Positions 2,529 to 48,099 of a DNA stretch of 64,000 nt are shown in pieces. The stretch's first letter is position 1. Every line of letters starts with the position of its first letter. Origin of the DNA: Pomacea canaliculata (taxonomy: Eukaryota > Mollusca > Gastropoda > Architaenioglossa > Ampullariidae); contig NC_037590.1 of assembly GCF_003073045.1 (NCBI RefSeq), positions 38,742,751 to 38,806,750 of the forward strand, in the 5' to 3' direction. Both the position numbers and the translations under genes were made by a program. The notes beneath the pieces are model-generated. The model worked only from the letters and a program-made list of their open reading frames with translations, had not been told where the DNA came from and searched no databases.

Positions 2529-4762
2529 TTATAGAAGAAAAGTAATATCACAGTCGACTACATTCTGACTTCCTTCACTACTCTCATGTATGACAGAAGC
2601 CAACTCCAGGTTGCTAAAAGTTTGTCCTTGGAAAGCATGAGTCATGCCCCCTTCCAGCAACACAGCAGCCTGAGTCATGTTCACATTTTCACGGTGCTGA
2701 GGATGAAATACTTGAGGCAACTGGGATACACTGTTGTGATGTGGCACAGTAGCATTTGTCAGCATGGTTCTGGTATAGTAACTTGATGGAGATGTTGTAA
2801 TTACTTCTGGTCTGCAGATATCCACTCCTTGTTGGTGTGGGTGCTTGTTGGCAGCAATCTGATTCATCAGTTCAGCATACTGGGCACGCCTTATAGCCAA
2901 ATGTTTAATGGATCCATCCTTTGTTCGAACCGTGATGTAATGAATATCTGGGTCCTTAGAGGAAAGTTTTTGTGGTAGATCTTCTGCGTTGGGACTAACA
3001 GATTTCATGTTATAAGGACTATCTGAAACTCCAAAATCGAAACACTGATTTGAGGCTATTGTTTTATTTCCTGAAACCTGCCCTGTTAATGCAGTAAGAG
3101 ATTCATTTCCATTTCCAGCCAAAATGGAAGAACTTGCCGTTGGCAATGGGCTCATGGATTCAGACCCAGTGCTGTCTTCAGAGCTTAAACTGATAGAAGA
3201 GCTAGAAGTATATTCCTCTGAAGGCATCTGAAGCAAGGCATCCATGAATTTATCCAAATCAGCGACTGTATTTCTTTGCTCCACAACACAGCCTTGGCGC
3301 TTGTGTTCCTCAATTTCCTTCTTGTAGCGCTTGCATTTTTTGATCAACTTCATTTTCTCGTCTGCAAGCCTTCTGTTGTCATCTTGCAGCTCCTGATTTT
3401 TCTGTGCAAACGGGACATTGTGTATACAATGAAAAAAAATTCAATATTACCAACAAAACTTTTCAACATGCATCAATAAATGCAGATTTCAAATAGGAAA
3501 AGATGACAAAAATGATAAATTTATTAAAATGTATCATCACTAGAAGAAGCAGAATCTAACTGTATCTAGAATTTTCTTCTTTACCTTCTGAAGTTCCTCT
3601 GTCAAATGCAGCTTCTTATCACGACATCGTTTTGCTGCCTCACGGTTTTTTAGTCGCCTCAGGTTTTTGTCTTCACTAGAGCATTCCTCCTAAAGATAAA
3701 GAATTTCTTTTTAATGGTCAAATTCCAGCCCAGATAAAATTTTTCTGCCTCATGTTGGCCATCTTGTACTGTGTTTTGAAACAATGAAAACTAAAATAAA
3801 ATAGATGGCTTAAGGGATCAGTAAACGTTCACCAATTTTTACATGGGCATAATCATATTGTTGTAAAACAAATCAAGAGTAGTCTCCCCTGTTCAACAAA
3901 ACCTACATCAATGGATATGGTCAAGCTTGTAAAGCCATAAGGAGATTGCAATATACTTCCACAGTTTTAATGAAGTGAAACTAATGCACATGCTTTAAAA
4001 AGTGGGGGGAAACAGACAATAACATTAAGAATGGCAGCTTGAATCGTGTTGTATACACCTGCTGCAAAGTTAATGGAACAGCCTAGAGTGACCTTAGACA
4101 TTAACAGTCACTTTTGAAAGTGTCTGCAATTCTATCTGATGAGAGGCATGTTTTGTGGACAGAGTTTCATCAACTTTCATCAGACCGCTGATTCTGTATA
4201 CCTACAAGCAGGACCACCACAATGAGGCTGTCCTTCGACTTCTGAACTCTACTGTGTGCAAATGAATGTAGATCATATGCAAGCCTGAACCATAATTGTA
4301 TGAGGGTCTATATGGAACAGATATTAATGTGTTGTTTCTTGATTCTGCTTCTCACTGGCCCTCATTTGTGGTTCCAATAATAAAAATTAAATATGCTTTA
4401 AAAGACTAGCATCAGGCTTCCTCTAAAGCCGTTTGGAACAAGATTTTTTTTAAATGCACACAAGGACTGTTATCAATGGTGGTCAAAGTAAAAGGACCAC
4501 AGCATTTACAATGAAAACCAGGTACTGATGCATGCACACACACACACACAATGCACAGGCATATCTAATTATATCTGCATATACAATTAACTAGAAGTTG
4601 AAATACAACCCAGATACAAACATCTACCATTGTGTGGTTTAGGTTGGCAGATGTCTGAGTACTGCTGCTTGATGCAAGATTGCCTTTATGGTCAGTGGCC
4701 TTGAATATGTTTGAAGATCCCATGGTAGAATTTTTGCTTCTCAAATTTCTCTTCGATGACAT
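2529..4762 (-). CDS. bZIP transcription factor A (ATF/AP-1-like), three coding exons
   Basis: The coding exons, in transcript order, are 4762-4628 (45 codons), 3689-3585 (35 codons) and 3401-2529 (290 codons plus stop), joined by phase-0 GT-AG introns into about 370 residues. Exon 2 encodes the basic region with NREAAKRCR, which fits the bZIP signature N-x2-A-A-x2-C/S-R. Exon 3 opens with the zipper and ends it with EIEEHKRQGC, like the H-x-C end of ATF2, Fos and ATF3 zippers. A Ser-rich stretch follows, then a conserved module at about residues 230-262 (IHYITVRTKDGSIKHLAI, then QYAELM) shared only with bZIP-C. The protein should be a nuclear, dimerising DNA-binding regulator. The start at 4762 is the only ATG in frame before the basic region that gives a sensible N-terminus. 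The subfamily is uncertain. Confidence 0.88.
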
Positions 4763-5429
4763 TCTACCTGTAGCTATATACACATATGACAATTATGATA
4801 ATGTGTGGCAAATGATCTTCAAAGGCACCATCATGTCCATCCAAAGCACTTATAAATCAAAGTACACTTTTATGGAAACCTTTATGTCAACGGGATAATT
4901 TAACTTAAGGGCACACTGCATTACCTATGCCTATGGAAATTCCCAATACAGTTAAAACACGCTAATGGACAAAATGCACAAAAAAAATGTTAACTGCACA
5001 ATGTAATAAAATCAGTGACAACAATAAAAAGGATTACAATTATAAATACGAATTTATGGCTTAAATATGTTTTACAGTACATGATTATTACAGTTTACTG
5101 CACCTGGGGAAAATGAGATTATTTTCACTCTTACACTTACAGTACAAAAAGCAAGCTTGAAAATTGCATCACGTGAACTTTTTTAAAATCGAGAACGCCC
5201 AAGTATATATATTTCTTACTCTCAATGCACTACTATATATATATATCACATTAGATGGTACTTCCATATGCAATAACGTGTATTTTAACAATACGGTAGA
5301 GCAAATATACTTACCTACTGCATGCAGCTCTCCCAGTTGTCACAGTTGCACGCTGTGGAGAGTGCAGCGCCTCTCCGTGAAGAGAACACACCGGGGGTTC
5401 AACGTTCAGTTTTAGACTGAAGCACTCAC

Positions 5430-5480
5430 CTTCATCCTTTTGATCCTGTCTTCAATTTTCTTTTACATAAACAATTATTA
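5430..5480 (-). other. Probable 5' non-coding exon of bZIP-A
   Basis: On the minus strand the segment ends in ATGAAG followed by the near-consensus donor GTGAGTGC at 5430/5429. The probable acceptor (CTACAG) lies just upstream of the bZIP-A start codon, and the exon after it begins GTAGAATG. The upstream edge is not visible and 5480 is a guess. If spliced so, the ATG at the exon end opens a 10-codon uORF that overlaps the main start in another frame. Confidence 0.4.
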
Positions 5481-7045
5481 ATTAAAGTTCAAATGCATCT
5501 CTGTCTTTAATTTTATTACTAACGCAGGTCGGTTTTGGTTGCCTTCTCACCCCTTAGGCTTGCGGTCTGCATAACGGTAGCTGCCAGCGAAAAATGGCCA
5601 ATATTTTTTTTTAATTTTCAGATTAGTAGATCGGAGAATTCCCGAAAGCACGTCACAGCAAGCAGACGAGGGAACGCGCGATGTGTGTGTACGTGAAGCC
5701 GACCAATCAGCTTGACCAACATTTGCATAATTTATGTAACTGGCATTCTAGGTGGAATATTTTCAAATCTCTTTTTTGTGTGAATCTTTAATATTCGTAG
5801 TATACTAAGTTCCTTTCTCAATATAAAATATGTACAAGTATGCCTGTTTTGAGTATGATTTTAATAAATGTTCGGTCACCTCGTATCTGACCCTTATAAC
5901 ATCCAAGATACCAAATAGGTGATTTGCATAAAAGTGGAAATCCCCTCTTATCCCAAACCGAAACTGTTACACCTAATCTGGCATTCGGGAAATTCCGTTC
6001 TCACACAGATTCAATGTAAAGGTACGTCACACCACTTGCCGTATCTCTAGAATGTTGACCGCTCAATTACTAGATTATAAATATAGCGAAAAGGCTTAGG
6101 CTCTTTTAGTTTGACGTCAGTTGTGCGCGAATTCCCGACATTAGGAAACCCTGACGCACGCTTAGGTGTCGCTTTGGGTCGAGTAAAAAGAGCCTGAGCC
6201 CTTCTGACCAGGAGCTAGCTATAGGCTGTCAGAAGCCAGGAGCCTTCAATACTGGTAGGTGTTGTCGTTTTCTTCTCCACCCCTTCCTTAAATAAACAAT
6301 TACTTTAGTTTAAATGTTCATTTTAAAGTCAAATCTTTTTCTGATTTATATAACTATTATAACTTCTTTCGTAACAACTAAATTGCTTGAGGTTCCCTGA
6401 CGTTGATATATATCGATCCTTGAAAGTGTATACATAATAGTCTATCACTTTAGCTTTTTATTATTCAATTACAACAATTATAGTCTTTGGCATAAGAATT
6501 AAGATTCTATGTTGCTTTCAATATTTGACATTTTGTCACAGGGATTCCAAACTTTTAAATAATTTGTAAAAATAATTCATTATGCCCTGTTATATGTGTG
6601 TCAGGAGAATCACAACCTTGTACAAGTATTACACTTCCGCGGGAGGATTAAGATATTAAGAACATTCGTCTTATTGACTATTGAAATAATAAATTTCTCT
6701 GTACCACTCTTAATTATAGGCTATAGTGACAGACATCTTTTTTTTTGAAAAAAGCTTTCATAGACATCAATAATCCAAAAGTTTATGTTGATCTTTAATT
6801 TATTGGTTGTGCTTGATTAGCTGCATGTCCTTTAATTGTCATGAGGCTTACTTCGATCAGCATGAAACTGGTTCAATGTGGATTTAGAATTCTTGTCATT
6901 GATGTGTAGGTGGCATACCTTACTATTGTCACAATGTTTATAGTACCGACATGCAGCATTTAGAACAAGAAAGTTACCCTATTATCACTCTGGCTGTTTT
7001 TTTTTTCTCCCCCCTATCAAGGGTTACCTGCCCTGCTGTCAGCAC
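5481..7045. promoter_or_regulatory. Divergent intergenic promoter region between bZIP-A and bZIP-B
   Basis: This 1.5-kb gap separates two head-to-head bZIP genes. It holds CACGTCAC at 5649-5656, TACGTCAC at 6023-6030 and a perfect CRE at 6112-6119, all known core sites for CREB/ATF factors. No coding exon is apparent. Shared control of both genes is inferred from the layout and the sites. Confidence 0.5.
6112..6119. promoter_or_regulatory. Perfect cAMP-response element (CRE)
   Basis: The octamer TGACGTCA is the palindromic CREB/ATF binding site. It lies about 0.7 kb from the presumed A 5' exon and about 0.95 kb upstream of the B TATA-like box, in the shared promoter gap. Confidence 0.5.
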
Positions 7046-7052
7046 TATAAAG
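7046..7052 (+). promoter_or_regulatory. TATA-like box of bZIP-B
   Basis: TATAAAG lies 153 bp upstream of the bZIP-B start codon, leaving room for a 5' leader of about 120 nt. No other TATA-like word is so well placed. Confidence 0.45.
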
Positions 7053-7166
7053 AGATAATTTCGTAATCTTTCGAGACCACGAGTGAAAAGTCTCTTTTGT
7101 GAGACAAGCGAGACGAGAGAAGAGAGAAAAAGAAGCAAAGGCAAACCAAGAAGGAAAAAAACTCTC

Positions 7167-7193
7167 ATGTGTAGTCTAGAAGACAACACCTGA
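7167..7193 (+). promoter_or_regulatory. Upstream ORF of bZIP-B
   Basis: An 8-codon ORF (MCSLEDNT, then TGA) lies in the presumed leader and stops only 5 nt before the main ATG at 7199. Such a short uORF usually tunes translation of the main frame, as in ATF4 and CHOP. Its use here is inferred. Confidence 0.45.
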
Positions 7194-7198
7194 CAACA

Positions 7199-8988
7199 AT
7201 GGACGACGGGAAAAATGGGCTGCTCTCAGTACTTCGGGAGAAGAGAAAAAGTGAAGAATCAGAAGAAGACCTGCCTGAAGACCTCTCCCTAAAAAAACAA
7301 TGCACTGAGGTATGTTCCCAAGACTGAGCATGATCTTTGACTTTGCTTCATTCTTAATGTAGTGTTAGTCACACTTTGCTCTAATGTTTCCATTGGCAGG
7401 CACAAAAAATTCCCAAAAAGGATTAATAAAGTTGTTTTGTATTTGTAATTTTTGTGTTTGTAACTATTTCTCATTATTTGGTATCATGTTGTTGTTGCTG
7501 TTGAGTAGGAGAGAAAGAAGTGCTTCTACCTAAAGGCAACTATTTCGTGTTATGTGTGCTCAAAGTGCACATTCCTTTTAGAAAAAAAGGGGAGATGATT
7601 ATGTGGGATAGGCTTAATGGAAGTCTAAGTGTCAGATTAATCTGTCATTTGCAGATGAGCGACGAGGAAACTTCAAGACAATTGGAGAGGCGCCGAAGAA
7701 ACAAAGAAGCAGCAGAAAAAAGCAGGAAGAAAAGGAAGGAAGAGTTTGAAAAGCTGCAGTCAGTAAGTACCAATGAACAGACTCATTACATTAAAATCAA
7801 AAGAGTATAATAATAAATGCAAAATTTGTAAAGCGCATACTCACACTCCTACGGAGCATGCTTTTAGCACCTAAGAACAAGAACAAAATATCAACAGCAT
7901 ACAAGGGACAGGAAACAAACAATATATGAACTATAACAGAATAAAATCAAATACAGAAAATGCAAAGAGGAACCAAATAACAAGAACAAGTAGACACTTC
8001 TTCAAAAAGCAATTTCATGGCGATGAAAGAGTCTTGACTTTGTCTTTCTTGACACATAAACTTAAAACCTTTAAACATAAAAAGGAAAAACCCTGTTCTC
8101 TGATTTGGAGATTTTTATCTAGAGGAAGTGGTTTATAAAAATTTTATTCCAGAGAATTATGACACTTTTGTAAATTAACGACTTTTTAAATTATAACAGG
8201 AAAATGTCAGGCTGAGTCAAGAAAAATGTGAACTGGCAGCGATGATATCGGCATTGAAAGAAATGCTGGCAAAGGAGCATCAAGATAACAAGGAACTGCA
8301 AATGAAAAATGACACCCTTAAGCGCTGGATAGCCAAAAGAGCTCAAGAACTGGGCCTCAACAAGCACAGCATCATGCAGCGCAAAGAAACTCAGCCTCAG
8401 AGAAATGGAGACAATGAGACATGCTATTCTAGTGATGAAGCATCACTTGATGAAGCTCCAACACCGAGCAGCAAAGAAGCCAGCCCACTAAAGGAAAATG
8501 CCCAGAGTTTGCCCAGAGTTGCACAAAAGGTTGAAAGAAATGTTCCAGTGTTGACCACCACAGCAACCAAAGTGAAACCAATGCTGCATACACCATGGAT
8601 TGTTGGAGAGAATGATATGGCAGTTCCTGAAAAGCAAACAAGGCTGAAGATGAAACAGGATGAAAATCAAGAAAATATGACTGCTCATAAAGTACAGTCC
8701 CAAGAGCACATTAATGTTCCAGGAGATAAATATTTATACCTACCTGATGGTCGAGTCCTCATTGTGCAGGGTAGTGTACTGCAAACACCCTCCCCACCAC
8801 CCAGCCCTCCTCAGCCTCAGAGCATGCCATTCTATATGCCTTATAATATTGGCAGCCAGAAGCCTGTTTTGGGTGGAGACACCCAAGAAAGTCTGATGGG
8901 CTCGCCAAATGTCCTTGACTCTAACTCCAAGGCTGCCATCGAGGCTTTGCTGAAACTTGGCTATGAGGTTAAAATATCACATGGCTAA
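7199..8988 (+). CDS. bZIP transcription factor B, three coding exons
   Basis: The coding exons are 7199-7309 (37 codons), 7655-7762 (36 codons) and 8200-8988 (262 codons plus stop), all joined in phase 0, giving about 335 residues. Exon 1 (start MDDGKNGLLS) is similar to exon 1 of bZIP-D. Exon 2 encodes the basic region NKEAAEKSRKKRK. Exon 3 begins with the zipper (ENVRLSQEKCEL), then LKRWIAKRAQELGL, a Pro-rich stretch and a C-terminal AIEALLKLGYEVKISHG. The last block and the block YLYLPDGRVLIV recur in bZIP-D, so the two are paralogues. The expected role is as a nuclear DNA-binding dimer. Intron 2 contains a dispersed repeat. The class of bZIP is not one I can name with confidence. Confidence 0.9.
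7808..8000 (+). repeat. Dispersed 'gcgcatactcacactc' repeat, copy in bZIP-B intron 2
   Basis: The stretch aligns by eye with 18232-18420: both run from an ataataaa start through a 'gcata.tcacactc' core, a 'tgct.t.agc.cctaagaa' block and 'aagaggaac.a..taacaa'. A shorter piece is at 37325-37385. It looks like a SINE or the non-coding tail of a retroposon. Confidence 0.6.
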
Positions 8989-17016: not shown

Positions 17017-17944
17017 TTAGGCATCTTCATCTGGAAGGCAGCAAACATGTGTCATGCAAGAGTACATCTGGTGGTAGAGACGCAGGCAGTTGTTCAGAGT
17101 ACGGATATCTTGTTCCAATTGAAGTTTCTCCTCGTACAGTTCCATGGACTTCTGTAAAGAAAGAATATGTAAGAATGAGAACCTCCGGCACTCAAAGAGC
17201 TAAAATAGTCTCTAGCAATAAGAATGTACACACTAGGCATGCACAATATTTTTCACATTTTAGTGAGGTTCTAAATCAGTTGTGGAAGAAAAAAACTTAA
17301 AGCTAGAAAATCTGTTTGCAAGATGATAATATGAAGAGGTCAAATGAATAGCAATCATTATCATCGTGTAGTCTGCAGCTATATATATGTATCCTAACTG
17401 ATGCTAATTATGTAAATATATAAGAACCTTAAAAGTAACATTCTTCAACAACCTTCAAAAGAGTCTCCTTTCTCTTTTTCTTGGCAAGGTGAGACTTTTT
17501 AGCTGCTTCTTTGTTGTGAAGTTTTCTAATGGCAACCTTCATTTCCTGTTAACACACAAACATATGCAAAACTGAAAGGAAAAAAAACCTGTAAAATAAC
17601 AGAATAGTCCTATTTTCCTTTTTTTCAACCTTTTTGCATTGGTCATATTTCACCCAAAAATGCTTAAATAGCATAAAAAAGCAGACAGTCAACTTAAATT
17701 GGATCCCACCTACCTTGGCTTTTTCTTTTCTACTAGTAACAGTTGGTGGTGGATGGTGGTTCACAAAATTGTGAGCAGTTTTGTTTGACTTTTGATTGCT
17801 GGGATGAGAATCAGGTCTCGTCTGTGAAAACGGTTTGGCAGTGTCTCCACTGCTTGTTATGAAGCTAAACAGTGTTTGTGTGGTAAATGCTTCTGAGTTT
17901 GGATGGCTGGTCACATACTGCACATGTTCACTGTACATTGGCAT
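17017..17944 (-). CDS. Short bZIP factor E with altered basic region, three coding exons
   Basis: The coding exons are 17944-17714 (77 codons), 17545-17453 (31 codons) and 17151-17017 (44 codons plus stop), in phase 0, giving about 152 residues. Exon 2 reads RKLHNKEAAKKSHLAKKKRKE: the bZIP asparagine and both alanines are present, but the invariant arginine (N+8) is histidine. Exon 3 is a short zipper (MELYEEKLQLEQDIRTLNN) with a Cys/His-rich end. The donor of exon 2 is GTTGTT, a weak match, but the junction falls exactly where the paralogues have theirs. Size and layout resemble ATF3, JDP2 or BATF. It may bind DNA weakly or act as a dimer partner that blocks others. An acceptor at 17970 implies an upstream 5' exon. 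Confidence 0.78.
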
Positions 17945-17948
17945 GTCC

Positions 17949-17960
17949 TCAAACTGTCAT
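17949..17960 (-). promoter_or_regulatory. Minimal upstream ORF of bZIP-E
   Basis: ATG ACA GTT TGA sits in the same exon as the E start and ends 4 nt before the main ATG. It lies after a good acceptor (ttttgttag at 17970), so it should be in the mRNA. A role in re-initiation is inferred. Confidence 0.4.
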
Positions 17961-17969
17961 TTCTTCCTC

Positions 17970-18856: not shown

Positions 18857-18864
18857 TGACGTCA
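18857..18864. promoter_or_regulatory. CRE palindrome next to a C/EBP-like site, upstream of bZIP-E
   Basis: TGACGTCA lies 4 bp after TTATGCAAT (18845-18853), a good C/EBP or C/EBP-ATF site. The pair is about 0.9 kb upstream of the E start codon and could be its promoter, since the E 5' exon is still unplaced. Confidence 0.45.
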
Positions 18865-24305: not shown

Positions 24306-24401
24306 ACTCACCTTCGCTTCATAACTACCACCACTATTCCCTGGAACAGCTGTCGGCTGTTTTCTCCGGACACTCACACGGTTTTTCCTTTTCATCATAA
24401 G

Positions 24402-26973: not shown

Positions 26974-27004
<31 letters not shown>

Positions 27005-27098: not shown

Positions 27099-29950
27099 CT
27101 ATGAGATGGACGCTGAGTCGAGGACCTCCATGCTGTTGTACTTCAAGTATTCCATTATCTGTGTCGTGCTCATGGACATCAGCACCTCTCCCGACTCAGT
27201 CTCTGTTCCTCCAAGTAACCCCATGCTCGGTTCGTCTGAACCCCAGCCATTGCTGTTCGTCTGGTCAACGGGCTGCAGGTTGACAGGGGTGTCGCTTTGG
27301 GTTGCAAAGTGTACCCCGGGAACATGCTGCATCGGGATGTTCACCAGAGTCGTGAAAGTCTTCGGCAACGGCAAGGATGTTTGTCGGGTCACTTCAGTGG
27401 AAGGCGAAGCGGTCGCACTTAGGTCACCAGGGGTGTCCTGCTTGGTCGACCGCTGTGAGTGTAGAAGGGTGCCAAAGGGTTGTCCAGTCGTCGTCATGCT
27501 TACGTCATCCTGCGAAACGGGTTTGCTAAAGGATTGAATGCTCTCGTTGGCGAAGAGCGTGGCAGGAGTCTCGCGCTGACTCGCGCAAGCAGTACGAGAG
27601 AATGTGGACTTTGTGGACCCGAACGCTGCTTCCCGCAACTTCACGGCAGGTAAGATGTCGTCATATGATGGAACTCTCACTTCCGTTGGTGCACGCGGCC
27701 CGTTGGAAAGGTTTAGATCACACTGTTGTTGTTTTGGCTGCTGGTGGTGGTGGTGCTGCTGCTGCGGATAGCCCACCATCCTTGAGGTCACATCAGCTGA
27801 AGACGTCTGAGCAAAAACGGACTGTGATGTTTGAGGTGGCCTGCTCATTGGATTCTTCATCAGCGAACCCACCTTGGCACTGGAAGTCACAAAGGTCGAG
27901 CTTGTGCTGTTCGCTTCAATTAGCCCAGGCGCCCCAGGCCGAATTTTCAGCTGGGTCTGTCCTGGAAGACTGTCAGAACTGCGAACACCAGATCGTTCTA
28001 CGGTTTGCAGGTATGCCATTAAAGCCCTGATCTTTGCCTCGCTTTGCTTCTCGCCAGCTACCTTTTCTTGGGTTTCCCACATCTGTCTCGAGCTGCCAGC
28101 GACCTTCTCAACATTGCACGTAACTTTCGCTGGCACCTCCTTCTTGACGAGGGGATCGTTCGACAGGTTGCAGGAGGGCAGGACCTGAAAGTCCTGTGGC
28201 TCAGTCTTGATCGACCGAGAGACTGCATCTACGGCAAGGAACTGCAGGTTGCTCTGCAAGCTTTTGCCTTGAAGCATATTCATGAGATCTTTCTTCACGC
28301 GCTGCACGTGCTCTTCCTCGGCATCCTCCTCGGTTTTGATGGTGATGTGGGTATCAGCCTCATCTTTTGTTACATTTTTCATGACGCTGAGAATGTCATC
28401 CATGGTGTCCAGCCTCTGGCAGTTGTCGTCTTCCAGTGTGGGATCCGAAACGAAGTTGCTACTCTCAGTGTTCGTAGAAGAATTGTGGAACAATGGGGCT
28501 ACGATGTTCTGTTTGATACCAGAAACTACCGGCTGCTGCTGCTGCTGAGGAGGATGTAGTTGCTCCTGCATTAGGTATTGTGGCAGCGGTTGTTGTTGTT
28601 GTTGTTGCGGCTGCTGCTGTTGGTGCTGTTGTTGTTTCTTTTGCTGCTGCTGGACAAGCTCGATCTTTTGCATGAGCGTTACATACTGGCTGTGTTCCAA
28701 GGCCAGGGTCTTAATAGACCCATCCTTATTTCTCACCCTGATGTGGTGAATCTCTGAAGCCTGCTTTGTCACGTTGGTATGGTTTACTTTTGGACAGCAC
28801 ATGCCGTGTGCTGTAGACCTTTCAGTAGAAGCACACTGCCAGGCAGCGTCAACATGCAAGCCAGGAGTGGGCACTGGGGGGAGAGTTAAAGCCTGCTCAC
28901 CACCATAAGAGGTGGGAAGAGAAGCAGGTGGGGGGCGAGGACTGACACTAGGAGCCGGACTGGTGCTGGGGGCAGGGCTAGTGCTGGAGGCTGAGCTCGG
29001 CGCTGGGGAAGAGACCTGCGGCGGTGGGTGGGATGCTTCAGCATGCAGGACATCCTCGAGGTCGTACGGGGTTTGAAAGTGGGGCACGGAGCAGCCGTGG
29101 AGTTTGTGCTGCTCGATCTCCTGCTGGTAAGTGCGACACTTTTGAATCAGCTCCTCCTTCTCTTCTGCCAGCTGCCGATTCTCCTGCTCCAGCTGTTCGT
29201 TCCTCTGATCACACCACAGACATTGAAACGTGAGTCATTAACAGTTACTTTCCATGATACAGCGTCTTAACGAAAACACACACACACACACACACAAAAT
29301 AAAAACAAACGAAAACAAACAAACAAACCGACGTACATATGTCAGTATACAACGAAACATATATTTTTCCATTTTCTAATCTTGAGACCTGGGGAATCGT
29401 GTCGTTGACCAGAACAGTTGTATTTCCATCAGCCAGTAACAAATTAACTCTAGTCATTGAAGGTCTTACTATGGTCATCTTCAATTCGATCTTGTCATAG
29501 ACAAGTTTGCAATTGTTACATGCAAATTTATTCAGGTCATTAATAACAAACCATACCTTGGTCAATTCTTCCGTTTGTTGCAATTTCTTTTCACGACATC
29601 TTTTAGCAGCTTCTCGGTTTTTCTGGCGCTTCAGTTCTTGCTGGTCATCGAGAGGTTCCTGAACAAACCATAATTTTTGTCAATATTTGTTCATGGATCA
29701 ACCTGTCTGTTTATTATCCCTCTGCTTGTTCGCCTCTCCCTTCTCTCGTTCTGTGTGGGTGTGTGTTATATTATACATGTGTGTGTGGTGGTGGATGTCA
29801 GACGAGCACACAAGTCACACACCCACATACCTCTTTGATCTTCCGCTTCCGTGATGAGGTTTGTTTGCTGGAGCTGCTGCTGCTGCTGTCGTCGTCGCTA
29901 GGCTCATTTCCCCACTGAGGTAATCCTGTCGTGGTGCTCTGATCCGACAT
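27099..29950 (-). CDS. Large bZIP transcription factor C, Gln/Pro/Ser-rich, three coding exons
   Basis: The coding exons are 29950-29831 (40 codons), 29658-29557 (34 codons) and 29204-27099 (701 codons plus stop), all in phase 0, giving about 775 residues. Exon 1 (MSDQSTTTGLPQW) is acidic and Ser-rich and ends in a basic SRKRKIKE. Exon 2 holds the basic region NREAAKRCREKK. Exon 3 starts with the zipper and ends it with EIEQHKLHGC. Then come a Pro/Ser stretch (about 120-175), the A-like module at about 224-255 (IHHIRVRNKDGSIKTLAL, QYVTLM), a Gln-rich tract at about 256-298, and SUMO-type sites (IKTE twice, VKKE). This is a typical activator layout. It is the paralogue of bZIP-A, twice as long. 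An acceptor before the start implies a 5' non-coding exon. Confidence 0.92.
28539..28660 (-). repeat. Gln-coding CAG/CAA tract in bZIP-C
   Basis: A mixed CAG/CAA run encodes a Gln-rich domain of about 40 residues. Purely coding and in frame. Such tracts are often length-variable and act as transactivation segments. Confidence 0.85.
29205..29556 (-). other. bZIP-C intron 2 with a CA microsatellite
   Basis: This 352-nt intron between the basic-region and zipper exons holds a (CA)n run at about 29275-29297. Open frames across it are read-through of the flanking exon. Confidence 0.7.
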
Positions 29951-33470: not shown

Positions 33471-36243
33471 ATGTGTGACGGAAAAGACAAACTTCGACAG
33501 AGACTGAAAGAAAAGAGGGTCAACGAAGGTTTGGGAGATATACCGGATGATCTATTCGAGAAGAAACCTCGTCACGAAGTAAGTCAAACAAAAAGCTTTA
33601 AAGTCTTCGATCTTGAATTTCTGTCATGTGACTGGGCAGTGGTCAAAACGAGATTTAATTTGTTCAAAAGGATGTGTCTGAATAACAGTAATTTGTATAA
33701 AACTAATCACAATATTGGTCACTTAAAAAATGTTTATTCTAATAGAATTATATCGTTCGTAAACACACAGATTTTTCTTTTTGCGTTTGGTCTGTTCCTT
33801 TTGATTTCTGTAGTTATGCAAAAAAAAAGTTTCAGTTTAATGCGGTCTATAATGACAGCAAATAAAGAAAGATCAAAGCATGTGCTTGGCACTGCCATAT
33901 ATACAGTCATATAACATACAATTGCTAGGTAACACTGCCACACTACTCACACACACACTCTACTCATTTACTCACCTTTTGGCTAAATGTTTCAGATGAC
34001 CCAAGAAGAGAAAACCAAGACTGCAGAAAGACGAAAGAAAAACAAAGAAGCTGCAGAAAAAAGCCGAAAGAGGAAAAAGGAGGAATTTGAACGACTTCAG
34101 CTGGTATGTATTCGCAAGAAATATCTTTTAATAACGAGGTTGTAATGCTGCGGTGTTTTTTTCCCAGACACCGATCGCATCTTCTGTCTTTATGGTTAAC
34201 ATATGTCCTCTGGATGAAGTAATATATATGATGACAATTAGGACTTTCATATATGTCAGTAAAGATAACTCTCAGAAATTTTACTCTTGTGCAAATGCGT
34301 CAATAATAGGTAATGTCCTCCAGAAAAAAAAAGAAAAATTCTATAAGGGAAAAAAAAGGAAACAAATGCTAAACAAATATGTGGAAAATAATGATTTTGC
34401 ATACACGACACTTCTTGAAAAAGCACGAACTTGTGACTTGTTTTGTATTTTAATAATAATAAATAATAATATTTTTATTTTTATTGCTCTTTTGTCAACC
34501 ATTAAAGGTGGGCTCAAAGCTCTTTACTAAAATACACACAAATATAATAAGAATGGATGCTGGTCTAAAAGACAGTTGTAGAATCGCTGTATATTTGTGA
34601 CCTTCCCCTATCACAGTCTGTAGTCAGTCAGATTAGTCTGAGCGGCAAATATTTCACTGAGCTTCCTGGAGGAACATGATGTCAATTATTGCAGACTGGT
34701 CTTTACTCCAAGCAAAGCTTGCTGTGATAGGTCGACATTGTGAAGCAGCTGTAGGAAGGCAATCAGAGTTTGAGGTCGACACTGCCGATACACAGACCTC
34801 ACATCTAAGTAATGAGAAGATGGCGCAGATGTGACAGTAGAAATAAAACGGCAGAGGAAAAAGATGAAAAGTGGCGCAGACACAGAAATCCATTCACGAA
34901 CGTAGCAAATATCGTAACAGATGTACTGATGAACACTAGACACAAAACTTCACGCAGATCAACTGACAAGTAAGAAAAGTGAGTGAGAGGAGTCACCCTC
35001 CAGCCAGTTAGGCGAAATGACATCATTCCCTTCATTTTAAACTGAGAACATTTCTGCTAGAAAATATTAAATTGATAAACCCAGAAAATAATATAAAGGA
35101 AAAATAGGAGAGTAACTAAAATAATATTTTTTTTTCCAGGAGAACGACCAGTTGACGCAAGATAAATGCGATCTAACAGCACTAATCCAATCACTGAAGG
35201 ATAAACTGCAAGAGCAGAGACAGACTAACGAGAGACTGCAGCTGACCAACGAGAGCCTGAAGCGATGGATCGCCAAGAGGGCAAACGAACTGGGACTGGG
35301 GAAGCATTTCTACAAAGACCTCAAGAACAAACAACAGAAGCACCAGCACAGTACAGCGCACGACGCCGGCGACAGCATGGACTCCAGCGACTCCGTCCTT
35401 CGCGGGGATCCGTCCTTTGGAAGCCACAGTTTACAATCCGACAAAGACAATGGCAATACGAGGCTGCAGGCGTCTCCTAGGACAATGAGCTCAACCGATG
35501 CTCTTCCTGCTTCGCCGGGAAACGCGGAAAGCCCTACCCACGTAAGCTCCGCCTCCGCGCGAGATCTCCCAGCATCCTGTATCACAGAGCCGTCTGACGT
35601 GTCGTCCACGTACAACAACGTCCCGCACGAACCAAGATCCCCCGACCAAACTTGCGATGGTGAGCAGATTGTGGTGAGCGGCCACGTAGAGCATGGTGAG
35701 CAAGGCGATGTATACTATGAACATGTAGGCGAAGAAGAAGTGGTGTACCTGACACCTGGCACCATACTAGTAGTGCACGACGATCCACAGGTGCCGTCGG
35801 TGACCAGCAGCTCCTCTCCGCAACACCCGGAGGGGTCAGAGGTCGTCAGCAGCATCTCGAAGGCCATGGCAGTTCTCAACGGGGACGTTGGTGACGCCGT
35901 GGCCAGCACCGTTAATGTCAGCAGCGCCAGTCACGTTGACACAGAGGTCGCCATCGAGACTCTACTAAGGCAAGGCTATAAAGTCGAGATGCCGAGTGCA
36001 GGAGTTCTTAGGAAGAGCGGGAAGAGAGAAGCCCACGGTGAGGAGAATGTCGTCCAGGTGGAGCTGGACCACAACTACAGGACTGTCCCAGTGGGCCTGG
36101 CTCCCCAGCTTCCTGCCACCACAGGCGTGGGGGCTGCTCCCCCCGGGACCGGGGTGCAAGTGACGGCTGGTTCTCAACAGTTTCGCATGATTCCGATCAG
36201 TGAGAGCCAGTACTTAACTCTCAACATGCCGGTCACAGTGTGA
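33471..36243 (+). CDS. bZIP transcription factor D, three coding exons
   Basis: The coding exons are 33471-33578 (36 codons), 33996-34103 (36 codons) and 35140-36243 (367 codons plus stop), in phase 0, giving about 439 residues. The start has a strong context (gccaccATG). Exon 1 (MCDGKDKLRQRLKEKR) matches exon 1 of B. Exon 2 holds the basic region NKEAAEKSRKRKKEEF. Exon 3 carries the zipper (ENDQLTQDKCDL), then LKRWIAKRANELGL, a long Ser/Asp-rich middle, VVYLTPGTILVV, and AIETLLRQGYKVEMP. Beyond the point where B ends, D has about 80 more residues, finishing in RMIPISESQYLTLNMPVTV. It is the paralogue of B; the expected role is a nuclear DNA-binding dimer. Codon use is GC-richer than in B. 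Confidence 0.92.
34104..35139 (+). other. bZIP-D intron 2
   Basis: 1036-nt intron in the same place as the 437-nt intron of bZIP-B. Frames inside it, such as 34153-34530, are not coding as far as can be seen. Confidence 0.7.
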
Positions 36244-39600: not shown

Positions 39601-39675
39601 ATAATGGGGAGAATAGATGGTGATTTCCCGTCATATGAAACCGGAAGTCGGGGTAGAAAGCCCGTTGACCGACCT

Positions 39676-39754
39676 TGACGTCACTGTTGCCAGGGCCACC
39701 TTCGCCGTCTCGCATGCACACGACACAGACTGCGACAACATGAGGGGAATCCCC
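39676..39754. promoter_or_regulatory. Promoter-like segment with CRE and kappa-B-type palindromes
   Basis: A perfect CRE (39676-39683) and a perfect palindromic GGGGAATCCCC (39744-39754), the classic NF-kappa-B/Dorsal site, lie 60 bp apart in a locally GC-richer block. A strong donor (GTGAGTGC) follows at 40172 on the plus strand, so a promoter and first exon may be here. Confidence 0.4.
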
Positions 39755-40569
39755 TATGTAATGACACATAAAGCCCGGTACATACACACTGCGCGTGTTG
39801 CATCATAACACGGGTTTTAAAAATGTCGGCGACAGAGAAGAATTAACAAGGAATAATATAATAAAGCTCACACACAGGTGTGGGCTGTTACCTTATAGCC
39901 ACTACCGATATTTTAACATAAAAATGAAAAGCTAAATGTTAATACATTGCTGTACGGTGTCCGCCCACTTACAAAGTCTCCTTTAGTGACAGCCATGAAT
40001 TTGCCCTCGGCTATATCTAACTTGTTTGCTGACTTGAAATGAAAAAAAATTATGCACATAGATCTTCGAATAATGAATATTATTTTCTACATGATGCTGA
40101 AATTTGTGCACTTTGCTGTTTTGCAAAAATTGAGAATGATATAGCGATATCTTTACAAAGGCGGAGCCGTGGTGAGTGCGACTATTTTCATGCCATGGGA
40201 ATCCCATCTCGCTATTTTTCGATTGTTATTATAGAAGACATTTTTCTGCACCGATTCTTGCTGGATAGTAGAGAGGGACATCTTCTTTCAGATTCTGTCG
40301 GATTCTACTGTTTCGGAAACGGTAAGAACTCTTATCTAAAGCTTACATTGTTGTATGTAGGTGCGCTCGCACCTTGCTGTCAGGTGGTGGATGGATGGGT
40401 AGCAAGCGGTGGTGGTCTGAGGGACAAGAGAGGTTATTTTTGAGGTTACGAATTACAGTCGCGGAATGTTGTAAATTTATGAACGAAGAAATAAATAATC
40501 GGAAATTTTTTTTGTAGGAGACATGACAGATGTTGATTGTGACAGAGAATAACTAGTAAGTCTTAACAG

Positions 40570-40636
40570 AACGGAGGAAAATGGTACGTAGGAAGAAACA
40601 AGTTGCGAATGAGAAAGAAATCATGAAGTTAGAATT
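40570..40636 (+). other. Candidate small exon with start codon
   Basis: Bounded by an acceptor (cttaacag) and a consensus donor (GTAAGT at 40637), it contains an ATG at 40581 opening a basic frame (MVRRKKQVANEKEIMKLE) that ends in phase 2. It could join 43669-43803 in phase. There is no homology I recognise, so this may be chance or part of a non-coding RNA. Confidence 0.25.
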
Positions 40637-42646
40637 GTAAGTTTTGTTTTGGCTTCATCGTTTGTGTCTGTGCATCATAATTTAATTAATACGCGTGCAC
40701 AGTCCGTCACCATTTGGCTACATGATCTTGTGTTTTACGAAAGCTTGAGGTTTAAAGTGCATCCTCTTTGACATTTTTAGAGTAAAAATATAACACCAGG
40801 AAAGAAAAACTGCAGCTCTGACGCCGGTCGTGCATTCCTACCATGCACATGTAAACTCACACTCATGCATAATGACCTCGCATATTCTGAGACAACTCTT
40901 CCACAGACTAGAGATGTAGGGAGGGACAAAAACAAAACAATCTTCAACTCGAACTTTTTATTGAGGTAACAGCAACCATCATCATCGTCCTCATTAATAA
41001 TCATCAATCATCACACAATCATCATCATTAGAACAGTAAGCAGTTCTTTCGCCTCTAAGTAGTAAAACAAAAAAAAAAATTAAGCGTATATTTGTATAGC
41101 GATACTTACATATAAAGGAAATAAGAAAGAGTGTATACGAGAGAGAAAGAGAGAGATTACTGAAGGTAGAAGAATGTAAAGACATACTGATAAACAAATG
41201 CATAGCCCGATAACAGACATATCTCAGAAGCTGATAACATTAAAGAACATTATTGAGAACAATACAAGTCATTGTTGGTAAAGTCAAAACGGAGTGCTAA
41301 AGAGAAAGGAGAACCTTTTTAAATAAGAAAAAAATCAAAGCGAGATGAGTTCTATGCTTACAGAAACTTAGCCAGAATTGTGACGAGAAGTCTTAAATGT
41401 AAAATATTATCAACTGGAGTAGAACAAGATATCTCCTATTGGTTCACAATACGGAAGAGACAATGACTATAACCATACATGACAATTCGTATTCTACAGC
41501 AAGACCGCGAGAGGGAATCCACCTGCCACATACGGTCAGCTATAGTGGGGAGACGGGGTGGCTGTCTAGGAATGTGCTGATTGAGTAGGACAGCGAGGTC
41601 CCTTGAATCCTGCGATATTAAAACAGATGTAACAACAATACCCTGTTTATGTGTCTTAGGGAGGCAAGAATAAAACCAGACTCTCTAATTAAAAATGAGA
41701 TTGCATTGTGCAAAAAGTAGCCTGGAACTAGACTTTTCTACGTGTGATTATAATGAGTGTTGAGCACGAACTACTTAACATCTTCCTCACTTCTTCCCAG
41801 TTTACAAAGCTGCTTTGCCTTGATATGGCCTTAGCTGCTGGCTCCGATCCTCACTCCTCATCACTTTTTTCAGCTCTGTACGCCAATGTACGCAGTGGAT
41901 CAAGATATTTGTCAACAACAGTCATAACTTTAAACAATTTTTAAAAGCTTTTTCATTAGTGACATAAGTGCAAATACTCATTATCTGTAACTAACCCTGC
42001 TCTCTGTCTCTCTCTTTCTCTCTCTCTCACACACACTTTTTTTTTAAATGGCTGTGCCAAATGTCTTTATATCATAGTTAAAAGATTTATTTATCACATT
42101 ATAAAAACTAATAGGTGTTGAAAGCTTTCATTCACTCGTGTTTCATTTTGTGAGACTAGGACTCGCACTAGCAGCATCCCTCACGTAAAGGTTGTTCATG
42201 GTCAGAAATTTATAATGAAATTCAAAGAAATTCGTTTGGAGCTCTAACCTTGAGGGATGTTGTCTTTCTATTGTTCTATTACCGGTATTCTTTTGGGGGA
42301 TTTCTGACATTCCGATATACGTTCATATTAGCCAAGTCCGATAGCGGGCATACTAACAGAGCTTATTTACATGTGCTCTAAGACAACAGTGGAACACAAT
42401 ATAATTGACAAACCGATAAAGTTATCTCTTTCATAAATTAATTAAAAGTAATGTTTTACACAATTTGATAAAGAATGCAATAAAAAGAAATTACATACTC
42501 AGCAAGTACTGCTTATTGATAGTAGGAATATCATGATCATTAAAATTAAACTTAATCCGGAACAAGGTAGTTTGTTTCTTTGGAAAGACATTGTCATGCA
42601 AATGGTTCCACCTCTGTCCAGTGCAAAGTTTTCAGGCTGATCAAAC

Positions 42647-42680
<34 letters not shown>

Positions 42681-44049
42681 CAACCGATGGTGTGCATGTG
42701 GGTCTCGCGGTTTCCTGCGACACATTTATTAAGATATGAATCTCTTTAATAGTATCCTGTCTGCATTCAGCAACAGTTAATACCATCACGCTGTTACTGA
42801 CAATTTTCCAAACGGCAAATGTCGAGCGCTTAGTCTAAGAAGAGAAACTTTCCCCTGACTTTAGTGAGGGTGGGCCACTCTCCTTCAGTGTTTTGAAAAA
42901 TAATTTAAATTTGTTCACGCTTAGAAGGTGTCGTCTGAACTATGAAAGGAAAGGATCTTTTGATAAGGAAAATTCATATTGACATTTTCCAGCGAAATGT
43001 GAAAAAATATCCATTGTGGAAAGATAAGTAGTTAAATAATATTGTATAACAATGTTATACATAAAATATGAAATACTCATAAAATAAAACCATAAACTGA
43101 AAGCATACAACCGAAAATTTCGGCACACTTTTTAATGAGCAAAACTTTGTTCGTGGTTCTTTAAGGAAACAAAACTAAAGATTCGATATCGTATCACCCA
43201 GCTTACACTCTAGCGAATGCCATCAAAACAGGATCATTAAAACTAGTGCTCAAAATTAGAATTCCGGTTTTGGTCGAAATATCTTGTCATGAATGTATTA
43301 AATACTGTATATATATATATGCTTTAGTTAATGGTGCAGATTAAGTGATAGCTTATGACAATGATCTTCTTTCTTACTCTTTTTCTTATCTTCTATTCTT
43401 TCTCTTTTTGTTCGGGTGTCGTCAGTGCTATAGTTGCCTAGTTGTACTGCCTTGCTTTGCATTTCTTCATTACAAATGTTACAACAACAAAACAGAATCT
43501 TCATCATTATCGTCGTCATGGCCATTTATGATGTGCATTATTATAAATTTAATGCGGAGTTCATCATTGTTTAAAATAGCAACATGATGGAGCTACTGCG
43601 CTTACTTGTCAGACAGACAAGAGGTTATTCCCCTCCCAAACAGTTAATTAACTGTACTTTTTTTTTAGGTTGATGTCAGCGGGAATTTCCGGTCACATGC
43701 ATCAGACTGCGCCGGATGGGAGTTCTCGTGTGCTGGATGCTTTTGTGCTTTGGGAACTCTTCTGCGCTGTCTAGGCAGCCTGCCATTGGTCATCAACACT
43801 GAGGTACTCATTCCTTATACGGATACACATATGCAATGATGTGGCATATTTGTATATTTTTGTTTGTTTGAGAGGTAAGGATAGGAGGCGGAAAGAAACA
43901 CAAAGAAATAAAAAAATGACTTCTAGAACATGTAAAGTAGGCATGCAAGATGTAAAAAAAAAAATTAGATCCTGTAACTTTTAAGACGTCAGCTGTTAGA
44001 ATATATTTTTTAAATGTGAATGATAACGCTTACATCTTGTCTAGCTTTG
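40637..44049. other. Intergenic or intronic DNA without a recognised gene
   Basis: Contains a long A run at about 42651-42679, CT-rich simple sequence near 42000-42030 and one possible exon at 43669-43803. No other feature could be supported. Confidence 0.4.
43669..43803 (+). other. Candidate exon after a polypyrimidine acceptor
   Basis: A strong acceptor (a T run ending in AG at 43668) and a donor (GAG/GTACTC at 43804) bracket a 135-nt GC-richer segment. One frame is fully open. A second frame, which fits the phase left by 40570-40636, stays open for 33 codons and then stops at 43769-43771. No family is recognised. Confidence 0.25.
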
Positions 44050-44400
44050 GTTAATAATAAGGATAAGTATAGTTATATAGCGCATTTCTCCACTATAGAG
44101 CAGACTCAACCCGCTTTACAAAATAATAGCGAATGATCATCAGTAGATCACATGATATTGAAGTAGAGAGGATACAGCGGACAGCAACAACTGTACGTGT
44201 GACCTCACAGCGAATGGCGCGAAGAAACTTATGGCGAGATAAATGAGCTTGACAGTCGAAGGGACAATAGAAACCCGTAGTTGAAACCAAAAATTTCGCA
44301 GACAAGCAGATCGTTGAACCCTGTGTCAAATAATATGCCCGAAACTCACAACAGGTCGACGAAGGCAACCTCAAAAATCTAGGAGCTCGGCCCAACAGCC
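44050..44400 (+). repeat. Dispersed 'tatatagcgcatttctcc' element
   Basis: Begins with taataataagg and the core 'tatatagcgcatttctcc', followed by 'cgctttaca', the pattern of a very common molluscan repeat. The reverse complement of the same core occurs at about 62973-62990. Minus-strand frames across it are not genes. Confidence 0.45.
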
Positions 44401-44974
44401 GGTCATGCAAAGGGACATCACTCTACATTAGAAGACAACTGCGGTCTGACTGTATGAATGCACGCAATGCCGATCTCGTGTTTATCGCTGTTAACCTGGC
44501 TGAATCCTGTCGGTGATGAGGCTGCCATGTCCGATCTAACATCTAACAGAATTTATCCTGTAGTTTTACCCTAGGGTATCGCGCTGACAGGATTGCTGGC
44601 CTATTCAGAGATTCTCTGAAGGAGTGTGTCTTACAATCTTACAGTGACTTTGAAGTTGGTACATTGAAAGTAAACCACTATTAACAGTGCGTGACTTTCC
44701 AGTGCTTCTATCCTCCTCCTCCCAGTTATAAAAATAAACAAGCAAAAACATAACGGGCTTTGTAGTTCCGACTTCCTCGACCAGTTTAATCTCCTTGAGC
44801 GGCATACATCAGCTAACACCAACTGTTAACTTTCAGTATGACCCATCCTCATCCCACTTTGACATGAACATGAGATGAGGCAACTGATTCATCAACCTAC
44901 ACGTAACTGACACCCCCACTTGACGAAGACCGCTCTGATACGGGTAGCAAACGACTTACTATCTGTTTGAGATA
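44401..44974. other. Gap between repeat elements, nothing recognised
   Basis: No coding or structural signal seen; it may belong to the decayed LINE that follows. Confidence 0.3.
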
Positions 44975-45872
44975 ATGGTCAGATATCAATCCTGTCTACT
45001 CTTGATCTTTCGGCTGCTTTTGACACTTTGAACCACCACATTCTCTTCCAGAGGATTCGTTCAACCTTTGGCCTCTCCCGCGCAGTTCTAGGTTGGTTCG
45101 CCTCCTATCTGTTCCCACCCAGTCGGTTAGTGTCCCCTGCTTCCGCAGCTCAACATGCTGCTGTGCAATACGAAGTACCTCAGAGTTGACGAACAAATTA
45201 AAGCACAACGACGAAAAATGGTCACCCGATAGCCCCTGAACATATGCTTAAACATACTACGTCCACACCATTCCATTTCTCTGGATCCCTTAGTACTTTT
45301 TCCCAGTCTGCCGGAAATCTAGGAGTAATTTTCGACACTTCATTGTCTTTCGAGAATCATGTTAAAACGGTCTCATGTCTATCTTTCTTGAACTGTCGCA
45401 TTCGACATATCTTCGCTGTTGCTTTCCCCAAGCAGCTTATGCCGGCATTTGTATTGTCCAGGCTCAGCTCTTTGTTCAAGCATCTCACTGATCACCTTTC
45501 GACAAGCTCCAGAGAGCTCAGAACAATGCTATTCACATTGTACTCGGCAAAGTGGAAGGCCGATCATGTCACACCACTACTGCGTGATCTGACCGGCTGC
45601 CAGTTCGTGTTCGAATCGAATTCAAGATCGCCATTCTTTGCTATCGTGTTGTTTATGTCCTTGCTCCAATCTGAGCTAGTGTCATCCTACCAACCTGACA
45701 GCTCTGCTCTGCCCACTTCGGATTTTTGACTTTCCAACTTATCAGTTGAAGAAGTTCAGCCGTCACTCCCTGTCGATCTCTGGCCCCAGTATCTGGAATG
45801 TCATGTCTCTATCTTTGCGTACAACGGACCCACTACATGCTTTCCTGTCTCGATTATAAGAATATTAACACC
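44975..45872 (+). mobile_element. Decayed CR1/L2-like LINE fragment
   Basis: Frame-shifting translation shows the reverse-transcriptase block [15 protein letters not shown], then a [14 protein letters not shown] block, and after a gap the C-terminal blocks NLGVIFDTSLSFENHV, a 'LPVRVRIEFKIA' block and 'GPSIWNVMSLSLRTTDPLHAF'. The order and spacing are those of the end of ORF2 in CR1/L2/Rex-type LINEs. The FADD-type catalytic part is missing, and there are several stops and frame changes, so it is an old copy. It ends about 190 bp before bZIP-F. Confidence 0.8.
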
Positions 45873-46059
45873 AACTGTAATTGTTCTGTCCTGGCTGTCA
45901 TTTTCCCCATACTCTTATCTCTGTTATCCTTCATATTCCGGGCATTGTTAACGGTTCGTGTGAGTGTACGTTAACTGAACAGGTGAGTGATATGTATGTC
46001 GTACCTAACTGAACCGTCTGTCTTATGGATCGGTTGATTCCAGGTTCGTCGTTTCTGCC

Positions 46060-46257
46060 ATGGATCCGGTGCTTCAGTATCCTTCCTCGCCGGTCGTCGA
46101 TTACATCTTTAACAGCGACAGCGACAGCGACAGCGATAATGACAGCGAGTCAGATTTGCTGTTTCCAGAGTTTGATCTTGAACTGTCCTGCGGAGATTGC
46201 ACTGATCCTATCTCCAAAGGGTTAGGAAAAATAACTCAGGCGATGATGATGATGATG

Positions 46258-46308
<51 letters not shown>

Positions 46309-47165
46309 TATTATTATTATTATTATTATAGCAACAATAATACATTTTGAGAAGTATCACAGCAGCTTATTCACAACTGTATAGATTTTGAATTCACTAA
46401 ATAAACCTACTTAGTCTCATAAAAAAATCAACCCATTCCTTACCTTGATTTCACCTAGCCACCCTTAAATAAATAAATGAGCATATAAGAATATTTCTGC
46501 CTGCTGCTGCTTTCGTCGGGCTGTGTATACAAACCCATGCATTCTTTATATTCTCTTTTGTCTATCATGGCATCAGTCGAACGCCCTGTGTGTTGCTCCG
46601 GCAGGTCGGATGCGGGCATCTCACAGGAGGTGCAGTCCGCCCTGGCGACCGCGCTGTCCAGCCAGTCACTGACTCCCATTCTGAAGGAGGAGCTGCGCTG
46701 TAAGATCCAGCTGAATCGCCTGCTGCACGGCCAGGAGGAGATCACTGCAGATTTTTCCGAAAAATCGAGTTCGGTTAGAGAACTTGAGTCGACGTTCTCG
46801 TGTTTTCTACATGTTTGCCTTTAAACCCATGTTCGAAAGTCTTGTGGTCAAATGACCAAACCAAATGAGAAGAAAAAGAAGGGTTTTGGTGGTGGTGGTG
46901 TGGTGGTGGTGGTGGTGGTGGTGGTGGTGTGGTGGTGGTGGTAGTGGTGGTGGTGCATGATTATGGTGATGGTGGTAGTGCATGATGATGGTGAAAGGGG
47001 TGGTGCATGATAATGATGAATTTCTTAAGCTTATTGCCACAGATGTCAGTGGAAGAGATAGTGAAGAAAAACCGAAAACTGGAGCAGAACAGAATGTCAG
47101 CCCACAAATCGCGACTGAAACAGAAAACTCTTGAAGAAAACATTAAATCTGTGCGTACAGTATAA

Positions 47166-47218
<53 letters not shown>

Positions 47219-48099
47219 CACCTACGTGCTGCGACTTTCACTGAATGGCTGCAGTTTGTGTATGTGTGCGCGTGCATGAATACACTCGAAAGCAAACGCA
47301 AAGCGAGAATTGTGTTTTCAAACAACATATTGCATTATCATATTCATTCTTAAGCTTACATCAACATATACCATTGGCATTTCAACTGCAAGACCTTATA
47401 GTAAGGAATTTGGAGGATGGTTATTAAGGTCGAGTCTCCCCCTAAACCTATTGAAACAGTTCATGTATCTTATCGGCCAATGGTGATGAGTGGATAAGTA
47501 AGAGAGACCGCTGAGAGAAAAAAAAACAAAAACAAAAAAACAAAAAAAAAAAAAACAACAACAACAACCGAAAACCCGGTTCTGTCTTTTTCAGCTTGAT
47601 TCACATCTTACCTAAACGTTCTTTCAGCAGAAAAAAATCTACACAAGTAGTTCTTTGTGTTACCCGTTGGGCTGATACCTTGAAAGAAAGATAATCCCAG
47701 AAATAATTTCTTTTTTTAACAGATAAGACAACTTGTTGTTGGGACTTTTAGATTCACTGTTTCTTTTATTAATCTACGGTTTTGTTTACGGGTTTTCTTG
47801 TTTGTTTGTATTTTTTGTTTTTTTCACGTTTTGTGACCACTGTGCTGTTGCAGCGACTGGCGTCCCTGGAGCGACACAATGCCTGGCTGGGTGAGCAAGT
47901 GAAGTCGCTACGGCATGCCTGCAGCTTGGCGCGCCAGTGGCTGGGCCAACATGAAGAATGTCTGCAGCACACAGCAAAACTGGTTTATGCAGGAAGAGAT
48001 CAACCATCCTCGCCGTCATTGTCGTCGACAGATGCGCAGAGTGTAGGAGTGCAGCACCTACTGTGTGCCGCGACAAACGGTCAGGGGTCAAACGTGTAA
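46060..48099 (+). CDS. bZIP factor F (Fos/ATF3/BATF-like), four coding exons
   Basis: The coding exons are 46060-46220, 46605-46773, 47043-47150 and 47854-48099. The first junction is phase 2 and the next two phase 0, giving 227 residues. Exon 1 (MDPVLQYPSSPVVDY) carries a run of Ser-Asp pairs and an acidic, hydrophobic LLFPEFDLEL. Exon 2 is a linker. Exon 3 holds the basic region NRMSAHKSRLKQK: N and R are kept but the first Ala of the A-A pair is Ser. Exon 4 gives the zipper (RLASLERHNAWLGEQVKSL) and ends it in LGQHEECL, like BATF, JDP2 and ATF3. The exon 1 donor (GTTAGG) is weak, but phases agree throughout. Introns carry long microsatellites. It is probably a dimer partner in the AP-1/ATF network. 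Confidence 0.82.
46254..46330 (+). repeat. (ATT)n microsatellite in bZIP-F intron 1
   Basis: A run of ATT units with a short ATG-unit start. The frame across it is a shadow of the repeat. Confidence 0.9.
46886..46963 (+). repeat. (GGT)n microsatellite in bZIP-F intron 2
   Basis: About 75 bp of nearly pure GGT units. On the minus strand it reads as His/Pro runs, which are not a gene. Confidence 0.9.
47165..47218 (+). repeat. (GTCT)n microsatellite in bZIP-F intron 3
   Basis: About 13 tetranucleotide units starting 15 bp after the exon 3 donor. The frames VCLS... and DRQT... are shadows of it. Confidence 0.9.

Follow-up and report, generated by a model that had tools for sequence, protein, structure and literature searches.

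We analysed a stretch of 64,000 nucleotides from the genome of the snail Pomacea canaliculata (C1:38,742,751-38,806,750 in a genome of 440,159,624 bases and 24 contigs), referred to as the window, which carries a cluster of genes for basic leucine zipper (bZIP) proteins. Six genes, lying in the order A, B, E, C, D and F, were modelled with three coding exons and two phase-0 introns each. An earlier reading made from the letters alone (the sequence-only reading) had described six small basic-region exons with phase-0 borders, each followed by an exon that opens with the zipper, in a span (2529-48099) that runs from the stop of A to the stop of F. The basic exons were located by looser phase-0 exon scans (initial regular-expression scans picked up none of the six), and these scans and the spliced models agree with that description: for 6/6 the positions, sizes and phase-0 borders hold, the exons are bounded by AG and GT, and the zipper comes first in the exon that follows. 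Splice junctions were called from sequence alone. After splicing, the frames are intact and encode 370 (A), 335 (B), 152 (E), 775 (C), 439 (D) and 186 (F) residues. The joined bZIPs of all six matched Pfam bZIP models with E-values below 0.001, and five passed the curated cut-off, gene E falling below it (22.4 versus 27.6 bits; 20.1 versus 22.3). No Pfam family scored above cut-off in the final exons of A, B, C and D.

A seventh gene, G, absent from the sequence-only reading, lies on the minus strand at about C1:38,725,667-38,727,369, which is 15-17 kb before the window starts. Besides G, a profile scan found no further basic exon in 40 kb upstream or 20 kb downstream of the window. Along 65 kb, the seven genes run G(-) A(-) B(+) E(-) C(-) D(+) F(+) and include three pairs of paralogues (G and E, A and C, B and D) repeated in matching order and on matching strands. 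The E-G alignment scores 178, with the next best at 82 (E) and 93 (G); A-C and B-D are mutual best matches by a wide margin, the copies being 58-59% identical in the bZIP. By post hoc arithmetic, about 0.8% of random arrangements (6/90 x 1/8) would have three pairs that repeat in order and agree in strand. The plain reading of order and pairs is that a block of three genes (E-type, A-type and B-type) was probably duplicated in tandem once, long ago. This duplication would be old because synonymous sites in the bZIP are saturated in A-C and B-D (proportions of synonymous differences, 0.83 and 0.85, respectively). The corresponding nonsynonymous divergences (dN) are 0.35 and 0.31, and comparison of the copies indicates that, in these two pairs, which were the ones tested, the bZIP has been kept by purifying selection since duplication. 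Since A and C have a common C-terminal stretch of 33 codons (55% identity), and B and D likewise align over common C-terminal stretches, conservation extends beyond the bZIP. The A/C stretch, IHxIxVRxKDGSIKxLAxxxxQYxxLMxxI (positions 2847-2945 of the window on the minus strand for gene A, with a counterpart in C), looks by eye like a small strand-strand-helix unit and has no Pfam match.

The sequence-only reading had taken the common intron frame as a sign of serial local duplication. Local duplication does find support in the order of the module and in the pairs A-C, B-D and E-G; the intron frame lends it none. In 20/20 genes (the six window genes, G, 12 genes elsewhere in the genome and FOS), a GT donor follows the invariant Asn at a distance of exactly 21 codons. 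A GT at +21 was absent from all 19 remaining bZIP loci, whose frames read through the site, and from all eight further bZIP-like loci tested later (L018, L019, L022, L039, L040, L041, L042 and L045), which makes 0/27 others. These comparison loci are a non-random sample, gathered from the same genome in two Pfam searches and ten with protein queries; L044 was judged not to be a bZIP, L006, L021 and L025 are window genes, and L023, L024, L026 and L027 duplicate L003, L001, L005 and L004, respectively. The frames of L039 and L045 meet stops at N+26 and N+13. An in-frame AG lies 15 codons before the Asn in 15/20 genes; in the others, the furthest in-frame AG within 18 codons before the Asn is at 14 (A), 13 (C), 10 (E), 14 (G) and 14 (one C8 gene). 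In snail CREB and ATF2, the acceptor lies within the codon that follows the invariant Asn, with no intron at +21; A-G do not match the snail CREB gene structure in intron position. Because snail FOS and 12 genes elsewhere in the genome have the same frame, it is to be expected without any local duplication and is no evidence for it; judged by its distribution, the frame marks a FOS/ATF3-type gene.

Among the comparison loci, L018 (C7:24829260), L019 (C7:24832530), L022 (C2:14790080), L045 (C2:14816678) and L042 (C2:12643430) are highly similar repeated bZIP-like frames, which may represent a gene that is mobile or spreads by retro-copying, the L045 copy having an in-frame stop. L039 (C12:14722500-14726000) has a C/EBP-like basic region by eye, with its stop where the zipper is expected.

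Eleven of the genes with the same build elsewhere are on C8, six at 21.94-22.11 Mb and five at 28.09-28.21 Mb, and one more is on C1 at 38.13 Mb. FOS is at C8:22.21 Mb, and its identity follows from its best match among solved structures (FosB, 1.4e-17, versus JunD, 1.7e-5). The genome holds at least 19 genes of the FOS/ATF3 build in addition to FOS. This total of 20 is a lower bound, as the Pfam genome scan was insensitive (PF07716 matched A and C and missed B, D, E, F and FOS). For the C8 clusters (loci L031-L038, L049, L050, L053 and L059), the retrieved sequence covered the stretches that hold the genes. The first C8 group is on the same stretch as FOS (21.94-22.21 Mb), and 6/11 C8 genes have Phe at the base-contact Cys/Ser position (NxxAAxxFR). 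Two weak genome matches, L063 and L070, were examined and judged to be chance.

Table 1. Coordinates of the exons of the bZIP cluster and of two palindromes near its genes. Positions are those of the window unless preceded by C1.
Feature	Position	Strand	Basis or remark
Gene A exon 1, 45 codons	4628..4762	-	spliced model; without ATF3-type motif
Gene A basic-region exon, 35 codons	3585..3689	-	exon scan, spliced model, donor-position test
Gene A zipper and C-terminal exon	2529..3401	-	spliced model; His33
Gene B exon 1, 37 codons	7199..7309	+	spliced model; alignable to D exon 1
Gene B basic-region exon, 36 codons	7655..7762	+	exon scan, spliced model, donor-position test
Gene B zipper and C-terminal exon	8200..8988	+	spliced model
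Gene E exon 1, 77 codons	17714..17944	-	spliced model
Gene E basic-region exon, 31 codons, with His for the invariant Arg	17453..17545	-	exon scan, spliced model, donor-position test
Gene E zipper exon, protein ends here	17017..17151	-	spliced model
Gene C exon 1, 40 codons	29831..29950	-	spliced model
Gene C basic-region exon, 34 codons	29557..29658	-	exon scan, spliced model, donor-position test
Gene C zipper and long C-terminal exon	27099..29204	-	spliced model; His33
Gene D exon 1, 36 codons, N-terminal motif common to genes elsewhere in the genome	33471..33578	+	spliced model; motif profile 15.0 bits
Gene D basic-region exon, 36 codons	33996..34103	+	exon scan, spliced model, donor-position test
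Gene D zipper and C-terminal exon	35140..36243	+	spliced model
Gene F exon 1, 69 codons, N-terminal motif as in D	46567..46773	+	spliced model; motif profile 36.2 bits
Gene F basic-region exon, 36 codons	47043..47150	+	exon scan, spliced model, donor-position test
Gene F zipper and C-terminal exon	47854..48099	+	spliced model; His33
Gene G candidate exon 1	from C1:38,727,369	-	
Gene G basic exon	C1:38,726,064-38,726,168	-	
Gene G zipper exon	from C1:38,725,789	-	
TGACGTCA, CRE-type palindrome between divergent genes A and B	6112..6119	.	not used as evidence
TGACGTCA, 913 bp upstream of gene E ATG	18857..18864	.	not used as evidence

Counted from the intron, the zipper register is constant, with Leu12 and Leu19 in 20/20 genes of the same build and His33 in 15/20 (A, C, F, FOS and 11/11 C8 genes). 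Among the 19 other bZIP loci, His33 occurred only in JUN; it was dropped as a FOS/ATF3-specific mark, and its distribution in this genome makes it an AP-1 mark. Six genes from elsewhere in the genome have an N-terminal motif, KEELRxxIxxKRxxxGxxE, encoded by an exon that precedes the basic one, and we take it to be the ATF3 N-terminal motif, presumably that of human ATF3. None of 1273 scored shuffles for F and none of 1785 for D reached the score of the real exon. A bZIP profile was also built from 13 bZIPs of the same build outside the cluster, the members of which scored 39.8-62.4 bits when left out one at a time; A-F were scored against it. At 39.8 bits, gene F is at the level of the weakest members; F is probably an ATF3-like gene. 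In the basic region, A and C have NxxAAxxCR, B and D have NxxAAxxSR, and F has NxxSAxxSR.

These results suggest, with fair likelihood, that the cluster consists of seven bZIP genes of the FOS/ATF3 (AP-1) three-exon build, arranged as a duplicated three-gene module plus F. Several observations weigh against this interpretation. His33 is missing in B, D, E and G (and also in the 38.13-Mb gene); JUN has the HxxxGC-type ending of A/C; and the N-terminal motif is chance-like in A, C and E, as is its profile score in B (423/1778 scored shuffles as good), although B compared with the motif of one C8 gene gave a pairwise score above all 500 shuffles. On the bZIP profile, JUN scored 39.6 bits, like F, and C (31.5), A (29.8), E (28.6), D (24.8) and B (19.4) are all below JUN; the bZIP sequence by itself does not file A-E as FOS/ATF3.

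Another explanation is that unrelated ancient bZIP families (for example, CREB-like A/C and PAR-like B/D) happen to be adjacent and have their introns in common by chance or convergence. The profile scores of A-E would be in keeping with it, and so would the search of solved structures with the bZIP of gene C, the only window gene searched there, which is nearer to GCN4 (2.3e-4) and CREB1 (5.6e-4) than to c-Fos (0.017), with JunD at 0.0021. A tree was computed from 59 alignment columns of bZIPs of the same genome and has little power. It recovered the pairs B-D and E-G (bootstrap 100 each) and placed F weakly among the C8 genes (node support 75, with ATF4 inside too); the remainder was unresolved, neither a clade with FOS and the ATF3-like genes nor one of all seven cluster genes being recovered. 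The approximately unbiased (AU) test rejected none of five constrained trees (p 0.143 to 0.48), but the tree uniting all seven with the FOS/ATF3 set (AU p 0.143) was excluded by the bootstrap proportion from resampled log-likelihoods (bp-RELL, 0.028) and by the expected likelihood weight (c-ELW, 0.030). No measure excluded the FOS/ATF3 set joined by the cluster genes minus A and C. Because the constraint is excluded with A and C and tolerated without them, these two are, on the tree comparisons, the least secure members of the set. The sequence-only reading had set against shared descent a tree with the six genes in unrelated ancient families; this was not found in the low-power tree, although bp-RELL and c-ELW lean that way for A/C. 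On the other hand, the intron of snail CREB and ATF2 lies elsewhere, the +21 donor is absent from all 27 other loci, the zipper register is identical in 20/20 genes, and His33 is present in A and C. We therefore regard adjacency of unrelated families as unlikely.

A recent, snail-specific serial duplication of one gene, as the sequence-only reading implied, could account for the tight spacing and the three clear pairs, and whole-genome searches found no close relative of A, E or G outside the cluster. However, synonymous sites are saturated in the two pairs tested, F matches genes of another scaffold, and the seven genes were not recovered as a clade, though the clade was not rejected. Serial duplication of a single gene is unproven, as the 59-column tree neither unites nor rejects the seven (AU p 0.319), and its recent form seems quite improbable. 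An assembly artefact (uncollapsed haplotypes) or pseudogenes might also be considered, as the available part of the report on the Pomacea canaliculata assembly describes filtering of alternative heterozygous contigs (PMC6129957); six intact frames with GT/AG sites, copies so far diverged in the bZIP and saturated synonymous sites make this extremely improbable.

The cyclic AMP response element (CRE)-type palindrome TGACGTCA occurs six times in the window versus 0.80 expected, and none of 100 shuffles had as many. The frame of a BTB-like gene accounts for three of the six, and the others are in the A-B interval, upstream of E and upstream of G; the 2.5 kb upstream of C, of D and of F contain none. 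The excess was discarded as evidence, since the palindrome is no rarer in other retrieved loci (31 in 270,203 bases, overlapping loci). TPA response element (TRE) sites are not enriched in the window (9 versus 11.6 expected). The BTB-like gene, recognized by eye, lies downstream of the cluster (55318-56772, plus strand), its three palindromes falling within 151 bases (55632-55782). Between D and F (45202-45729, plus strand), there is a frame that by eye resembles the end of a reverse transcriptase of a retrotransposon without long terminal repeats.

To return to the bZIP cluster, vertebrate FOS, JDP2 and BATF are likewise neighbouring genes with a common exon frame. The snail genes resemble FOS and ATF3/JDP2 (AP-1) in the short phase-0 basic exon, the zipper in the next exon and the register (tested on snail FOS), in His33 (A, C and F) and in the N-terminal motif (F and D). 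They differ in that there are seven genes in 65 kb, with long C-terminal tails in A, C, B and D, loss of the Arg in E and G, and A-E bZIPs too diverged for the family profile. In the Ciona AP-1 set, as described in the available part of PMC8369891, there are one Fos and one Atf3; the snail too has a clear FOS, but with it at least 19 further genes of the FOS/ATF3 build. The same part of that paper yielded nothing on exons. A survey of 49 genomes (18 animals, with Lottia the sole mollusc) calls the animal bZIP complement "remarkably stable" and places the FOS/ATF3 split along the bilaterian stem, in the portion of the paper available (PMC4736632); about 20 genes of this build clustered on two scaffolds in one snail would strongly break the stability it reports. 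In the available part of the Nautilus genome paper (PMC8257504), bZIP appears in a reference title only, and no report of this cluster was found among the best-ranked matches in the open-access literature.

As to function, the cluster proteins would be dimerising transcription factors. In B, D, E and G, core 'a' positions two to four are occupied by Lys-Ile-Leu, and the core Lys would disfavour self-pairing and lead to pairing with partners. The basic regions of A/C and B/D are complete, and these proteins would bind DNA; A/C have long C-terminal tails and B/D a longer zipper. A-D might act on CRE- or AP-1-like sites, and F would be a short ATF3-like regulator. In solved bZIPs, the invariant Arg (N+8) contacts DNA. 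It is present in 39/41 rows and missing only in E (His) and G (Asn), the zippers of which are complete, E being the shortest of the six window models. E and G may be inhibitory partners, which would dimerise, bind DNA poorly and damp other members. They are like the inhibitory bZIPs of the CHOP/DDIT3 type and the ICER-like ones in keeping the zipper with an altered basic region, and E also in being short, but E/G belong to another family and have other residues changed, and their inhibition is conjectural. The Arg may have been lost before the duplication if there was a single event; as His and Asn differ, two losses are possible.

The FOS/ATF3 family governs stress and immediate-early responses. 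A tentative possibility is that a circuit duplicated as a unit, each copy holding two DNA-binding AP-1-like members with different zippers plus an inhibitor, within an AP-1-type expansion of about 20 genes. On this view the circuit would be self-contained, and its inhibitor would have lost the universal DNA-contact arginine before the block was copied; the snail itself is known for tolerating stress. Should E and G indeed be inhibitors, the block would be a natural experiment in the linkage of activator and inhibitor.

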